Shown: piece after piece, positions 8,255 through 58,694 of the stretch
How positions within the stretch are numbered: the stretch's first letter is position 1
How the letters are laid out: every line of letters begins with the position of its first letter
Assembly: GCF_009068765.1 (NCBI RefSeq)
Contig: NZ_CP035534.1
Location: 1,426,001-1,490,000, forward strand
Length of the DNA stretch: 64,000 bases
Origin: Sulfurimonas hydrogeniphila
Lineage (GTDB): Bacteria; Campylobacterota; Campylobacteria; Campylobacterales; Sulfurimonadaceae
Reading direction: 5' to 3'
Program-made: the position numbers and the translations under genes
The notes under the pieces: generated by a model
Told to the model about the DNA's origin: nothing
The model's database searches: none
Seen by the model: the letters and a program-made list of their open reading frames with translations, nothing else

Positions 8255-8283
8255 ATAAAATCCTTTAAATGAGTCCGTATAAT

Positions 8284-11649: not shown

Positions 11650-11710
11650 AGACGCACAGCCCAGACTGCAGTGACTCTTCGGAATCGGCACTTCCGTGCC
11701 GACCGTTCCA
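11650..11710. repeat. Degenerate member of the paired hairpin-repeat family
   Basis: Between convergent genes. It contains a decayed left half (CAGCCCAGACTGCAGT) and a right half at 11680-11705. The right-half core CGGCACTTCCGTGCCG is a perfect 6-bp stem with loop TTCC. Other copies read GGTAC...GTGCC or GGTAC...GTACC. This copy changes the wobble side to C, so pairing is kept. It may also serve as a two-way terminator for the genes ending at 11643 and 11728. Confidence 0.7.
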
Positions 11711-17129: not shown

Positions 17130-17410
17130 CCAGGAATGCAGTGCCGGAACTCACCGTTTTTTCTCCACTCTCAGCCAGGACTGCAGAAAAAAATTCAGTT
17201 TTTTTCTAAGTCATGCTTTAGCATAGAAAGTCCGGGTTTCGAAATATTCCGGAATCGGTACTTTAGTGCCGACTGTTGTTACATCCTTGTCACTCTCAGC
17301 CCACCCTAAAGGATGGGTTCCAGAAAAATAATATGCTTTTTCCCAACCTAATGCATCAAGACTGAAGTCCGAGGGTTCCGAAATATTCCGGAATCGGTAC
17401 TCTGCTTTTA
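17130..17410. repeat. Intergenic cluster of paired hairpin repeats, partly decayed
   Basis: The 380-bp gap 17042-17421 is largely made of repeat remnants. A decayed pair spans about 17130-17210. A clear right half lies at 17250-17277 (core GGTACTTTAGTGCC), a clear left half at 17300-17317 (CCCACCC-TAAA-GGATGGG), another decayed left half near 17358-17379, and a right half cut short at 17389-17405 abuts the methyltransferase 3' end. Reading frames across this DNA, including one overlapping the methyltransferase, have no start signal and follow the repeat, so I treat it as non-coding. Confidence 0.75.
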
Positions 17411-23046: not shown

Positions 23047-23210
23047 AGCCCGCACTGAAGTACGGGTTCCGAAAAAAAAATACAGACTCACCCGGAATCG
23101 GTACTTCAGTACCGACTATTGCTACTTTCTTGCCACTCTCAGCCCGCACTGAAGTACGGGTTCCAAAAAAAAACACAGACTCACCCGGAATCGGTACTTT
23201 AGTGCCGACT
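23047..23210. repeat. Two complete paired hairpin repeats in tandem
   Basis: Two copies of a unit with 93-bp period fill the gap between the HIT and dctM genes. Left halves are at 23049-23066 and 23143-23160 (CCCGCAC-TGAA-GTACGGG). Right halves are at 23093-23117 (core GGTACTTCAGTACC, fully paired) and 23186-23210 (core GGTACTTTAGTGCC, one G-T pair). A-runs and CACAGACTCACC link them. Left and right halves are inverted copies of each other, so each unit can also fold as one large palindrome. Reading frames across them reflect only the repeat. Confidence 0.85.
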
Positions 23211-39773: not shown

Positions 39774-39932
39774 ATGGAATATTTAGCAGAATCAATTTGG
39801 TATTTAAGCTGGCCGGTCATTATTTATCTCTCATATAAATTTGTCAGTCTCAACCTGCATCACTACAAAAAGATGGAAAGACTCGAAGAACTTGAAGAAA
39901 TACATACTGAGAACTCACTAAAAATCTCCTGA
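39774..39932 (+). CDS. CydX-like small subunit candidate
   Basis: A 52-codon ORF right after cydB. ATG at 39774 has TAGGAGAA 6 nt upstream. Its single span contains SIWYLSWPVIIYLSYKFV, close to the W-Y-F-A-W start of E. coli CydX, the 37-residue third subunit that stabilises the haem site. A longer acidic tail (MERLEELEEIH) follows. It is too short for routine gene calls. Position, ribosome site and motif all agree, but the motif is short, so I call it CydX-like. It ends 3 bp before the end of the opposing HD-GYP gene. Confidence 0.68.
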   Translation: MEYLAESIWYLSWPVIIYLSYKFVSLNLHHYKKMERLEELEEIHTENSLKIS

Positions 39933-39939
39933 TTTTTAG
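39918..39939. terminator. Two-way terminator between cyd and HD-GYP genes
   Basis: A perfect 9-bp stem, CTAAAAATC / GATTTTTAG, around TCCT. It overlaps the stop codons of both converging genes. The A-run and T-run within the arms give a U-rich 3' arm in either direction. Confidence 0.45.
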
Positions 39940-41060
39940 GAGTGTTCCAGCATACCTTTTTCTTTGTTTTTGTAACGCTCTTGAATATCTGTAAAAACTT
40001 GTATATTTTTTAAAAAATTTTCCACTAAAAATGGATCAAATTGTTTTGCTTTACCAGATTCAATATAATTCAAAATTTTATCAAGTGGCCATGCTTTTTT
40101 ATACACTCTGTCATGTCCCAATGCATCAAAAACATCTACTATTGCTATAATACGCCCATAAATATGAATGTTTTCGCCTTTTAGACCTCTTGGATATCCG
40201 CTTCCATCCCATTTTTCATGATGTTCATATGCAACAATTGCTGCAGTTTGTAAGAGTTTTTGTTGAGAACCGCTTAACATTTCATAACCCAGTAAAGAGT
40301 GTTGTTTCATAATTTCAAACTCTTCTTCTGTAAGTTTTCCCGGTTTGTTTAAAATAGCATCTTCAATCCCTACTTTTCCAATATCATGCATTGGTGCTGC
40401 CATTCTTAGTTCTTCTGCTTCTTCAGAAGAGAGTCCAATTATTAATGCCAATGCTTTTGCATATTCACCGACTCGTAAAACATGATCACCCGTCTCCTTT
40501 GATCGTGTCTCACCAATTGCTCCCATCGTTGCAATAACCTCACGTTGTGTTACAATAATATCATTTGTGAGACGCACATTTTTTTCAACCTCTTTTTCAA
40601 CCAGTTCTGTTATATGTTTATTGTATTTTGCAAGCATTCTATTCGCTTTATCAAGTTCCAAAACAAGCAACTCTTTATCGTTTCTGTCTTGAATAGATTT
40701 CTGTTGCATCTTCACAAAGTCAGTCACATCTTCAAATAAAATAATAATTGTTTCGATTGCTTCAAATTTGTTTTTTCTTCCTGCTTGAACACTAATGGTA
40801 ACATAATCACCATTCTTGTAAATCAATGGTAGTTCTAAATTTGCTCTTTCTCCTTTTCCTATTTGCATCAGTTCTTTCTCTAAACCAATCAATTCAGGAA
40901 TAAGTTTCATAATACTGACATACATTTGTGAAGCTTCTTCTATATCAATATATTTTATAACTTTGTCAGAGAATTCAATACATTGCATATTCATATCTGC
41001 CACTATATATTCATACTGATGCCGTTCATAAATAGCATTAAAGACCTCTTGTATATGCAT
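39936..41060 (-). CDS. PAS-like plus HD-GYP domain phosphodiesterase
   Basis: Predicted cyclic di-GMP phosphodiesterase of 374 residues. ATG at 41060 is chosen for its strong AAAGGAGG at 5 nt. The earlier in-frame TTG is inside that site. Residues about 1-125 look like a PAS sensor (YIVADMNMQCIEFSDKVIKY). A coiled coil follows (about 130-180), then HD-GYP at 185-370 with MHDIGKVGIEDAILNKPGKL, YEHHEKWDGSGYPRGLKGE and VDVFDALGHDR. Metal ligands and the GYP motif are intact. It is the last gene of the GTPase operon, 20 bp after the GTPase stop. Confidence 0.9.
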   Translation of the reverse strand: MHIQEVFNAIYERHQYEYIVADMNMQCIEFSDKVIKYIDIEEASQMYVSIMKLIPELIGLEKELMQIGKGERANLELPLIYKNGDYVTISVQAGRKNKFEAIETIIILFEDVTDFVKMQQKSIQDRNDKELLVLELDKANRMLAKYNKHITELVEKEVEKNVRLTNDIIVTQREVIATMGAIGETRSKETGDHVLRVGEYAKALALIIGLSSEEAEELRMAAPMHDIGKVGIEDAILNKPGKLTEEEFEIMKQHSLLGYEMLSGSQQKLLQTAAIVAYEHHEKWDGSGYPRGLKGENIHIYGRIIAIVDVFDALGHDRVYKKAWPLDKILNYIESGKAKQFDPFLVENFLKNIQVFTDIQERYKNKEKGMLEHS

Positions 41061-41080
41061 TTGAACCTCCTTTTTCAACT

Positions 41081-41590
41081 CTATTGTTTTAGTATAGCTT
41101 TACTCAGTGAGAGAAAAAGTTCTTCCACATTCCTGCCATCTTTTGCAGAAGTTTCAAAAATTTCTTCTACTTTTTCAAGAGAGTCGCGAAGTTGTGAAAC
41201 TGTACTTTTTATTTGAGTATTTTCTATAAGCAAATCAGCCTTATTCAAGGCTACAACAGCAGGAACATTTTTCAGTAAATTTTGTGCTAACTTTAGATGC
41301 AAAGATATATTGTCTATACTTGATTGGCGTGTAATATCTCCCACAACAATCACACCATGTGCTCCTAAGACATAGGCAGGATTTGTATCTTTTACATCTG
41401 TCCGCCCTTCAATATCCCAGATCATAAGCTGTAACTCTAATTCTTCTGAAACTTGTACATATTTTTTAGATATTTTAACACCTATAGTTGTAAGGTAATC
41501 ATCACTGAACTGGTTATCAACATAACGACGTATTAAACTTGTTTTTCCAGTTGCAAAATCGCCGATTAAGACTACTTTTTTAGTTATCAT
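41081..41590 (-). CDS. Ras-like small GTPase
   Basis: A 169-residue stand-alone G domain like eukaryotic Rab and bacterial MglA/Rup proteins. It shows G1 GDFATGKT (10-17), a switch I Thr35 in TTIGVK, G3 DIEG (59-62), G4 NKAD (116-119) and G5 TSAKDG (147-152). The residue after G3, Gln61 in Ras, is Arg63, so hydrolysis may depend on a partner. It overlaps the end of the OmpA-domain gene by 11 bp. Bacterial relatives set polarity or motility. Here the likely partner is the roadblock-like domain next door, by analogy with MglA-MglB. Confidence 0.9.
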   Translation of the reverse strand: MITKKVVLIGDFATGKTSLIRRYVDNQFSDDYLTTIGVKISKKYVQVSEELELQLMIWDIEGRTDVKDTNPAYVLGAHGVIVVGDITRQSSIDNISLHLKLAQNLLKNVPAVVALNKADLLIENTQIKSTVSQLRDSLEKVEEIFETSAKDGRNVEELFLSLSKAILKQ

Positions 41591-43379
41591 TTTTTATCCA
41601 TTTAATCTGCACTAAGCGTCCTTCATGATTTTTTTTATTCTCCATCTCTGCTAAAGGAACAGGCGAAGCAATAAAACTTATCCTACTAGACGGTATCCCT
41701 TTTTCTATAAGATAATTATACACATTTTTTGCTCTTTCTTGCGCATAATATATATTTTTTGAAGAAACACCTCTTCCATCTGAGAAGCCCATTACCAAGA
41801 GATTTAAATCATTATAAAGTTCTAAAGTTTTCTTCATTTTTGAAGACTTCATCCATAAATCAATAAGCTTCATCTTTTCCTGAGTCAACTTGGATTGAGA
41901 AACCCCATAATAAATTTTCAGTTCATCTTGGGAAAAACTATACTCAATATCTGAAATAATTTGCCTAATACCTTTTATAGAACTTACTTCTTTTAATAAA
42001 TCATTATAGCTTTTTTTATTTTTTATTATACCACGTATCATAAGTATACCGTTATGGAATTTATATCTCAATCTGTTTCCACTGTCCAAATTAAGCATTG
42101 CAAATGCAATCGACAACTCTTTATTTATTTCTTCTTCGCTTAAAGGTGCATGCGCTAAAACAATTTTATCTTCCAATACTCTTCTTGTCAGAAGTGGTTT
42201 GATTGTCTGTAAAATATTTGTATGAAGACTTTCATAAGGAATCTTACCTTGAACTAAGACGTTTTTGTAGTTGACATCCACGTTGATATTATAAAGATTA
42301 AGATAAGGATTTTTTTGCAAATTTTGTTCAATTTTCTCTTGTAATACTTGATTACTGTAATTTATGTAAGAATATAGAGATAATCCGGCTAATGCTGATA
42401 TTCCTACTATCCAAAGAAAAGTATAACTTTGTTTTTTTTCTTCTTCTTCCAATATTTCGCTTTCATTTTCAAGCAAGGTATCAAGCTGTTCATTAATCTC
42501 ATCAAGATTGAGTTTATCCTTATCTCCTTCAAAATGCATAATTGCATCAGAATGTTTTTTGACTAAGAATTCCAAAACAGATGTAATTTTGTCTTGTAAC
42601 TTACGATTACTTGTACCGCTTAAAACAACAGCCAGATAACAACAACCTGCCACCTCTAAATAAATAGTATAATTTCCAAACTCTATTTCATTTAACTCTA
42701 AACTATCACTGTTCTTAGAAATCCAATCATTCACAAAACTTCGAATCGCACTCAACATTGAAGCGACCATCTCAGGTTCTATAGATTCATGATTTTTAAT
42801 GCTTCGTTCACTAACTAAAAGTCCACTCTCCTTATGAATTAAAAAAACACTCTCTACTTTATTTAATTTTGTAGAACTTTGCAGAAGCAATTCTGTCTCT
42901 GATATACCTTTAATTTTAGCAACGATTTTTCTTTTGAGTGTTTCATATGAGAATGTTGTTTGTACTTTTGTATTTATCTCATCAATCATATCTTTAAAAG
43001 ATTGTGAAACAAACTTACTAATCATATTACCAATAACAGGATAAAGTGCATCTACTATCTCATCTTTTTCATTTTTAACTTGATCTTTAATTGCCAGGGA
43101 AATTATAGGAGACATTACTTTTGCTATTTTATCACTCGAGTCTTGAATGGTGCTCTGTAACATATCACCAATAAGTGGAGCAAAAATAGCAATAAATTCA
43201 GCTTTATTTTTTTCAATGGTTTTTGAAAATATATCACTTAAAAGTGGTGAAATTTTTTCAACAATAACAGTAGCATCACCACTTTCTTTGATAGCCTTCT
43301 GAAGAAGCAGTTCAAGTTCATCTATTTTATGGCGTTCTTCTTCAAACAGCAGCTGTTTTAGTTTTTCGTAATCATTCAT
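41580..43379 (-). CDS. Inner-membrane linker with roadblock-like, BON-like and OmpA-like domains
   Basis: A 599-residue protein of unusual design. Residues 43-132 hold four helical repeats of exactly 23 residues, each with a central Pro (45, 68, 91, 114). About 165-280 is an alpha/beta domain like roadblock/LC7 (SVFLIHKESGLLVSE, then MVASMLSAIRSFV). An acidic linker leads to one span (about 320-340). After it come two BON-like segments (about 363-405 and 417-480) and an OmpA-like domain (486-597) with GFSDGRG and GRLVQI for peptidoglycan binding. The N-terminus is therefore expected in the cytosol and the C-terminus in the periplasm. It lies between the coiled-coil and GTPase genes. Confidence 0.82.
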   Translation of the reverse strand: MNDYEKLKQLLFEEERHKIDELELLLQKAIKESGDATVIVEKISPLLSDIFSKTIEKNKAEFIAIFAPLIGDMLQSTIQDSSDKIAKVMSPIISLAIKDQVKNEKDEIVDALYPVIGNMISKFVSQSFKDMIDEINTKVQTTFSYETLKRKIVAKIKGISETELLLQSSTKLNKVESVFLIHKESGLLVSERSIKNHESIEPEMVASMLSAIRSFVNDWISKNSDSLELNEIEFGNYTIYLEVAGCCYLAVVLSGTSNRKLQDKITSVLEFLVKKHSDAIMHFEGDKDKLNLDEINEQLDTLLENESEILEEEEKKQSYTFLWIVGISALAGLSLYSYINYSNQVLQEKIEQNLQKNPYLNLYNINVDVNYKNVLVQGKIPYESLHTNILQTIKPLLTRRVLEDKIVLAHAPLSEEEINKELSIAFAMLNLDSGNRLRYKFHNGILMIRGIIKNKKSYNDLLKEVSSIKGIRQIISDIEYSFSQDELKIYYGVSQSKLTQEKMKLIDLWMKSSKMKKTLELYNDLNLLVMGFSDGRGVSSKNIYYAQERAKNVYNYLIEKGIPSSRISFIASPVPLAEMENKKNHEGRLVQIKWIKNDN

Positions 43380-43383
43380 CTAA

Positions 43384-43974
43384 TTACTTACTTTTTTCTT
43401 CCTCTTTAGGTACGCTCTCTTCTATCATCATGTCAAAATTCTCTGCTATGGTTGTATCTTTTACCTTCATGGCTAAATCAAAAAACATACTTGAAAGATT
43501 ATCTTTTGAAACTTTTGCGCCCTCGAGATTTTCAACCTGTTCTTTAAGAAGTTTTATAATAGATGTTTCAATTTCTTTTAGTTCATTATGAAGTTCTTCT
43601 TTATTTTGGATATTTTCTCTTTTCATTGCATCAACTTGTGACTCAAATACTTTTTGAACGTCATCAAGCGCATTGTTTGCTTTTCTTTCTTGGCGAACAA
43701 GCTGTTCTTTTAATTCAATACTTTCATCCTGCAGTGCGTTTGATACAGTTTTAATCTTTTGTTCCAGAAGTTGCACATTTGAAGCATGTTCAGCAGTCAG
43801 TTTTTTCTCTAATAATATTACTTTTTGACTTAACTCTTTAGCAACAACATTCATATTTTCTTGAAGTTTGCTCAATTCTTCTTCAAATTTACGAATTTGC
43901 GGACCAAACATAAGCTCTCTTATTTGATCCATATTTCCTAATTGCCCTATTGAATTTTCTATTTTCGTTGCCAT
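43384..43974 (-). CDS. Coiled-coil protein heading the GTPase operon
   Basis: A 196-residue soluble protein that is almost wholly coiled coil from about residue 28 to 155, with heptads rich in Leu, Glu and Lys (LLEKKLTAEHASNVQLLEQK and on). The C-terminal part, LSSMFFDLAMKVK, is followed by an acidic tail. No family is recognised. It is the first gene of the four-gene minus-strand run and its stop is 4 bp before the linker gene start, so it is likely a structural or scaffold partner of the GTPase and linker. Confidence 0.75.
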   Translation of the reverse strand: MATKIENSIGQLGNMDQIRELMFGPQIRKFEEELSKLQENMNVVAKELSQKVILLEKKLTAEHASNVQLLEQKIKTVSNALQDESIELKEQLVRQERKANNALDDVQKVFESQVDAMKRENIQNKEELHNELKEIETSIIKLLKEQVENLEGAKVSKDNLSSMFFDLAMKVKDTTIAENFDMMIEESVPKEEEKSK

Positions 43975-44085
43975 TTTCTAAACCTTTCATTTCTTCAGTT
44001 GCACCATAATAACATAATACATATAAAAATGTAATATCACTAAATATTTACAATAAAGCTTTTAGATACCGGGCAACTTTAGAGT

Positions 44086-58370: not shown

Positions 58371-58664
58371 CCCGTACTTTAGCATTAAGAGTACAGATTC
58401 AGAAGAACATATCGGAATCGGTACTTCAGTGCCGACGGCCAAAACATTCCTGCCACTCTCTGCCCACCCTGAAGGATGGGTTCCAAAAAGCCATACATTC
58501 CTCAGAATCGGTACTTCAGTGCCGACTGTTAAAACATTCCTGCCACTCTCTGCCCATCCTGAAGGATGGGTTCCAAAAAACCACACATTCTTCGGAATCG
58601 GTACTTCAGTGCCGACTGTTATTACTTACTTTTACGCCACTTTCAGCCCGCACTAAAGTACGGG
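58371..58664. repeat. Tandem array of paired hairpin repeats, 90-bp period
   Basis: This fills most of the 359-bp gap between the convergent SDR and serA genes. Right halves start at 58413, 58503 and 58593, exactly 90 bp apart (core GGTACTTCAGTGCC). Left halves lie at 58463-58480, 58553-58570 and 58647-58664 (CCCACCC or CCCATCC with GGATGGG, and CCCGCAC with GTACGGG). A truncated inverted left half (CCCGTACTTTAG) starts near 58371. The conserved flanks CTGCCACTCTCTGCCC and GTTCCAAAAA complete the unit. Frames through the array translate to repeated short peptides and lack ribosome sites, so I call it non-coding. Confidence 0.9.
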
Positions 58665-58694
58665 TTTCAAAAATTTGTAAAAGAGAAGAAAGTT

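Follow-up and report, generated by a model that had tools for sequence, protein, structure and literature searches.

The question raised by this locus is whether the hairpins found between its genes are mobile sequences multiplied by a transposase or elements maintained by the host. The window (i.e. the whole 64-kb stretch of DNA that was analysed) corresponds to positions 1426001–1490000 of one 2,342,011-base contig. A first reading, made from the letters alone, had reported paired inverted hairpins at four intergenic sites. Hairpins were present at all four (11.7, 17, 23 and 58 kb; Table 1). The pairing held for the 17-, 23- and 58-kb sites but not for the 11.7-kb site, where a lone copy lies between a QueF-like gene and a class-II DAHP synthase gene. 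The left and right halves had been described as inverted copies of each other. Opposite orientations were indeed observed; however, they belong to one element, every copy of which reads GGAA, 7-nt stem, TTYA, 7-nt stem on its GGAA strand. The left-half stem proposed at that stage, CCCGCAC/GTACGGG, contains a C-A mismatch as written and was corrected to CCCGTAC/GTGCGGG, with a T.G wobble, on the strand proper to the element. It can be said with high confidence that the repeats are REPs, arranged as REPINs/BIMEs, of a REPtron, in which many non-autonomous single-stranded DNA hairpins go with one cognate RAYT.

Table 1. REP hairpins and REPIN units of the window (positions within the window)
Feature	Position	Strand	Composition and remarks
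Single REP, GGAA TCGGCAC TTCC GTGCCGA	11681-11702	+	Loop TTCC; wobble replaced by C-G; unpartnered
Decayed long-loop REP	17174-17240	-	44-nt arm in the loop
REPIN	17251-17321		REP 17251-17272 (+) and REP 17300-17321 (-); GGAA ends outward; 27 nt between
Truncated/decayed REP pieces	about 17340-17401		Last piece ends at GGAATCGGTACT
REP, stem CCCGTAC/GTGCGGG	23049-23070	-	
REPIN	23094-23164		REP 23094-23115 (+) and REP 23143-23164 (-)
REP, stem TCGGTAC/GTGCCGA	23187-23208	+	Orthologous copy in genome G137 has the 44-nt arm
Decayed REP relic	58371-58400	-	Left edge of the array
REPIN 1	58414-58484		REP 58414-58435 (+) and REP 58463-58484 (-)
REPIN 2	58504-58574		REP 58504-58525 (+, head AGAA) and REP 58553-58574 (-)
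REPIN 3	58594-58668		REP 58594-58615 (+) and REP 58647-58668 (-, head GAAA)

Copy number, stem pairing and paired units

On its own strand, a REP consists of GGAA, the first half of a 7-bp stem, TTYA, the second half and usually CT, over 22–25 nt. A search of the window alone with two mismatches gave 15 matches vs 7 in the control. As this enrichment is mild, genome-wide counts were used to settle that the repeats are not due to chance. The sequence-only reading had proposed to collect all copies from the genome, and this was done with two patterns. The exact core GTACTTYAGTGC was found 57 + 54 = 111 times in the 2.34-Mb genome vs 0 + 0 times in the reversed control, and the stem-blind pattern GGAAN7TTYAN7CTG 41 + 46 = 87 times vs 1 + 0. 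All seven pairs were intact in 68 of the 87 stem-blind matches, which comprised several stem types. The commonest stems were TCGGTAC/GTGCCGA, CCCATCC/GGGTGGG, CCGGTAC/GTGCCGG and CCCGTAC/GTGCGGG; CCCAGAC/GTCTGGG is an example of the rarer ones.

The stem-blind matches comprised 37 distinct sequences, in which 219 of the 259 stem cells were paired, vs 170 on average, and never more than 192, over 5000 shuffles. The covariation from which selection on a hairpin had been proposed is thus real in a set chosen blind to the stem. This comparison does not amount to a strict probability, because the REP sequences of one genome are related; the comparison of stems between lineages, given below, answers this caveat. 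In alignment A2, all seven pairs varied on both sides and covariation was 1.09, vs 0.33 after shuffling and no more than 0.15 after sliding; the rows of A2 were chosen as paired, and the unbiased test is the shuffle of the 37 stem-blind sequences. Two outcomes had been named beforehand as counting against the proposal, namely stems that change at random and repeats that match the end of a known transposon; neither was found.

Strand-specific features were counted in the 136 copies of the fetched stretches. Stem pair 5 (the third from the loop) was T.G in 117 of them and G.T in none. The stem was directly followed by CT in 82% of the copies and by C in 135 of 136. The head was GGAA in 127 of 136, the finder having demanded GAA-like heads. 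When folded as DNA, the GGAA strand gives the 7-bp hairpin at -4.1 to -5.0 kcal/mol, and the complement folds otherwise and more weakly. The copies are extragenic: 22 of 136 overlap ORFs of at least 130 aa, although such ORFs, called mechanically, make up 84% of the DNA. The repeats are high-copy palindromes in the range of 20–65 nt that characterizes REP/BIME/REPIN elements.

Neighbouring REPs with GGAA outward (CTG inward) formed 23 pairs separated by 23–31 nt (mode 27), whereas GGAA-inward neighbours were 10–93 nt apart. From this tight outward and loose inward spacing, the outward pair, which spans about 71 nt, was taken as the unit, i.e. a REPIN as in PMC3116915. The matches of relatives to the 23-kb site mostly begin at the GGAA of the REPIN unit, and the unit 23094–23164 is the portion that recurs elsewhere in these relatives. 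REPIN 2 is a tandem repeat of REPIN 1 with a period of about 90 nt.

The RAYT transposase

The sequence-only reading had also suggested looking for a RAYT gene. Only one match to PF01797 (Y1_Tnp) was obtained in the whole genome, a RAYT of 169 aa (1545209–1545718, minus strand) whose intact ORF lies about 55 kb outside the window. REPs lie at 1545057(-), 1545101(+) and 1545188(+) on one side of the gene and at 1545763(-), 1545799(+) and 1545843(-) on the other. This single-copy gene flanked by inverted copies of a genome-wide REP has the layout of a REPtron and, with the inverted pairs, their tight spacing and the copies throughout the genome, it bears out the REP/BIME-like plan suspected from the window.

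The protein carries the motifs NHIH and YIKNNP (HuH and Y---NP), and H91, H93 and Y149 are invariant in 14 homologues. It scored 74.8 bits (E 6e-21) with NCBIfam NF047646 (REP_Tyr_transpos), below the 80-bit cut-off, which is an annotation threshold and not a biological feature, and 34.4 bits with the IS200 model. The best PDB match of its AlphaFold model (pLDDT 90) was 4er8, the E. coli RAYT–REP complex (Foldseek E 6.5e-8), which was also the top match with VIA-align (Z 12.5, 133 residues, 2.8 A). IS608 and ISDra2 came close behind in the fold searches. With phmmer, the single RAYT sequence missed 4er8 in the PDB; it was found with a profile. The dN/dS of 0.07–0.13 (0.10–0.13 relative to two relatives) is low and indicates that the protein is maintained. 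A Sulfurimonas MAG contains a RAYT 88% identical with the same flanking genes, which places the organism in or very near Sulfurimonas, and from coordinates the gene appears to be syntenic with that of G137. Within 10 kb of rayt, 16 of 105 REP copies were found vs 0.9 expected; counted as independent loci, the clustering is weak (3 vs 0.5 expected, p about 0.01–0.04).

We infer transposition from these data: the REPs are very probably spread by the single RAYT of the genome. The REP strand would become single-stranded, e.g. on the lagging-strand template. RAYT is predicted to bind the GGAA head and the stem-loop, and to tell the REP from its complement by the head and the T.G wobble. By analogy with TnpAREP, it may cleave close to the CT that is conserved at the 3' foot, and strand transfer would then multiply REPINs into intergenic DNA. 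In E. coli, TnpAREP cuts the single-stranded REP, and not its complement, at a CT near the foot, and the stem irregularity and the 5' tetranucleotide let it choose the strand; the dissemination of REPs by RAYT is unsettled even in this species (PMC8266576). We also infer that stems drift in compensating pairs as RAYT mainly reads shape, head and loop.

Relatives and rival explanations

RAYT homologues were found in 14 further genomes of a 150-genome sample of the family and also in other families of the phylum. All 21 inspected RAYT loci are flanked by hairpins with GGA-type heads (GGAA, GGAG, GGAT or GGAC), and the loop is TTYA in most of them. The stems of relatives differ yet pair: GCAAGGT/ACCTTGC, GTGGGGT/ACCCCGC, GTGAGGC/GCCTCGC and GTACGAC/GTCGTAC. 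In the REPs of some relatives, a bulge or mismatch separates four pairs at the foot from three next to the loop, e.g. GCGA-T-GGC TT GCC-T-TCGC. Retention of the GGA head and, mostly, of the loop while the stem is turned over in pairs is what a hairpin recognised by its cognate RAYT should show. Some lineages have perfect stems and no T.G wobble, and the CT is variable outside this genome; these strand-discriminating features are partly lineage-specific. Bacteroidota relatives of the RAYT (L064, L066 and L067) are flanked by CCGTGGG-type hairpins with TTAA or similar heads and, in some cases, TTYA-like loops.

Within the genus, 7 of 13 genomes with a RAYT were REP-rich vs 2 of 45 without (Fisher p 1.7e-4), the CM counts per genome being lower bounds at the upper end (at least about 57). 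G075 and G115 were REP-rich with no RAYT detected, so REPs can persist without it. In L082 (G089), 22 REP matches were found and the RAYT homologue contains an internal TAA, i.e. REPs outlive a broken RAYT there. The 58-kb site, between an SDR gene and serA, contains three REPINs here, related arrays in G137 and G150, a relic in G184 and REP-free gaps of 22–94 nt in G053, G186 and G152, which, judged by serA identity, rank with the closest relatives. The REPs of this site turn over between species; this does not reveal the mechanism, and presence or absence between species could be partly due to loss.

The same hairpins might be RNA or DNA elements maintained by the host (transcript-end stabilisers, attenuators or terminators), in which case selection on a host function, and not mobility, would explain the covariation. 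Their intergenic placement agrees with such a role, and E. coli REPs exert effects of this kind (PMC8266576). A U-tract, however, followed the hairpin in 2 of 136 copies on the REP strand and in 0 on the other, and intrinsic terminators were rejected on this near absence; no Rfam match was obtained within the window. REP sites are not conserved between species, and the stem has changed completely in RAYT-bearing lineages with the GGA head and loop kept. Moreover, a host function predicts neither the paired spacing nor the flanking of RAYT, and it is considered improbable.

An origin from classical IS200/IS605 elements, with MITE-like derivatives whose hairpin ends are recognised by the IS TnpA and not by RAYT, was given still less credit. 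The transposases belong to the same Y1/HuH superfamily, the ends of these elements are likewise hairpins with a 5' tetranucleotide, and IS200-type structures came close behind in the fold search. Such elements have a Y---Q transposase and several near-identical copies, but the genome contains a single Y1 gene and no IS200-type transposase, its lone PF01797 match being the RAYT. The YIKNNP of this protein corresponds to the Y---NP of class 2 TnpAREP, and not to Y---Q, in the motif table of PMC6006769. It is also nearer to the RAYT model than to the IS200 model, and many alternating copies with one transposase copy fit a REPtron. Chance palindromes or another class of short repeats, e.g. DNA-uptake sequences, have a negligible probability. 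Uptake sequences can occur as inverted pairs too, but the reversed controls gave 0–1 matches, the repeats are linked to one gene, and many stem types with pairing kept are not expected of a fixed uptake word.

Known REP systems, the 44-nt arm and other repeats

As the REPs of a REPtron, the repeats resemble the REP/BIME/REPIN and RAYT/TnpAREP systems of E. coli, Stenotrophomonas and Pseudomonas. They share with them short, high-copy, intergenic imperfect palindromes in inverted pairs, a 5'-foot tetranucleotide, a 3'-foot CT and a strand-marking stem irregularity, and a single RAYT gene bordered by inverted copies (PMC2817692, PMC3116915, PMC8266576). They differ by the head, which is GT[AG]G in those systems, GGAA here and GGA[A/G/T/C] across the phylum, by a TTYA loop fixed in most lineages and by a protein under the cut-off of the NCBI RAYT model. 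They are best classed with REPs as a GGAN-headed variant and not as canonical GTAG REPs.

By its motifs, the RAYT is placed with TnpAY1 subclass 2.4 (Bertels group 4), for which PMC6006769 gives NH[IFV]H and YIxNNP. This subclass has WQ and GT[AG]G heads, whereas the W-motif is mostly WA here and the heads are not GT[AG]G. In E. coli TnpAREP, Q95 contacts GTAG, and its replacement by A was considered as the cause of GGAA; this was rejected, L078 and L081 keeping WQ with heads GGAC/GGAA. In PMC6006769, REP-like hairpins without GT[AG]G are described for subclass 2.6, which is mostly from Bacteroidetes and has weaker structures, unlike here, and for class 3, whose foot is CnGA and whose motif is Y----Q. 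REP-type repeats are also present in another member of the Campylobacterota, Sulfurovum, with GTAG or CGTC tags. These two are the only tags listed in that survey of tagged repeats, the main text of which makes no mention of GGAA (PMC3733652). In RepRanger, the REPs of Sulfurimonas gotlandica were counted only. Outside the supplementary tables of PMC6006769, which may already list these RAYTs together with hairpins found by hand, no description of GGAN heads was found in the literature.

Dissection of how RAYTs recognise REPs has so far been confined to GTAG heads (PMC8266576). Here the head (GGAA/GGAG/GGAT/GGAC), the stem and the RAYT changed together and the loop was mostly kept, which makes a recognition and cleavage-site code readable from sequence. 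The REPtrons of Campylobacterota extend beyond the described tagged families, and REP families of the GGAN type escape surveys that look for GTAG or CGTC. We propose, as a rather doubtful combination, two linked novelties: a phylum-wide Campylobacterota RAYT lineage with GGA-type heads and a code unlike GTAG, and a 44-nt arm that would be a separate, extremely small mobile element targeting hairpin loops, perhaps via the Y1 transposase.

The arm, TCTATGCTAAAGCATGACTTAGAAAAAAACTAAATTTTTTTCTG, interrupts the loop precisely between TT and YA in 7 REPs here and 13 in G137; the window copy lies at 17187–17230. The REP at 23187–23208 has a plain loop, and its arm-filled orthologue in G137 has identical flanks and no duplication. 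Among the matches listed, the arm was found in 20 distinct contexts, all of them REP apices, with at least five stem types. It was detected in 20 of 135 Sulfurimonas genomes and not in the reversed control (0). It folds as two extra hairpins upon the REP stem, and no Rfam match was obtained for it in the loci scanned. Complete insertion sequences are known to target REPs (PMC1525189); the 44-nt insert would be something other than these and is the least explained part.

Several other features were noted. At L189, L191, L192, L202, L205 and L208 (about position 1500), the arm lies inside a different multi-hairpin intergenic repeat of other Sulfurimonas species, composed of a GGAAGTAATTCC hairpin, CTACGCTT-arm-AACGCT, then TTTTCTTCGGCAGAAAGC and CACTAG; the scanned loci gave no Rfam match. 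At 930791–930914, 1994960–1995071, 2100563–2100670 and elsewhere, REPs are enclosed by inverted CCATTAAGTTAAG / CTTAACTTAATGG pairs with a spacing of about 110 bp. With at most one mismatch, 36 matches were found vs 4 in the control, and the arrangement looks like a MITE carrying a REP. G137 contains an insertion of about 160 nt with terminal inverted repeats of about 20 bp (CCCGGATTATGCAATAGAAAAC) between TTTAA repeats, at a site that is uninterrupted in the window (8264–8268). A 4.1-kb island of the window (39906–44067) is missing from the syntenic region of G137; it encodes an HD-domain protein, a Ras-like small GTPase, an OmpA/BON protein and a 196-aa protein.
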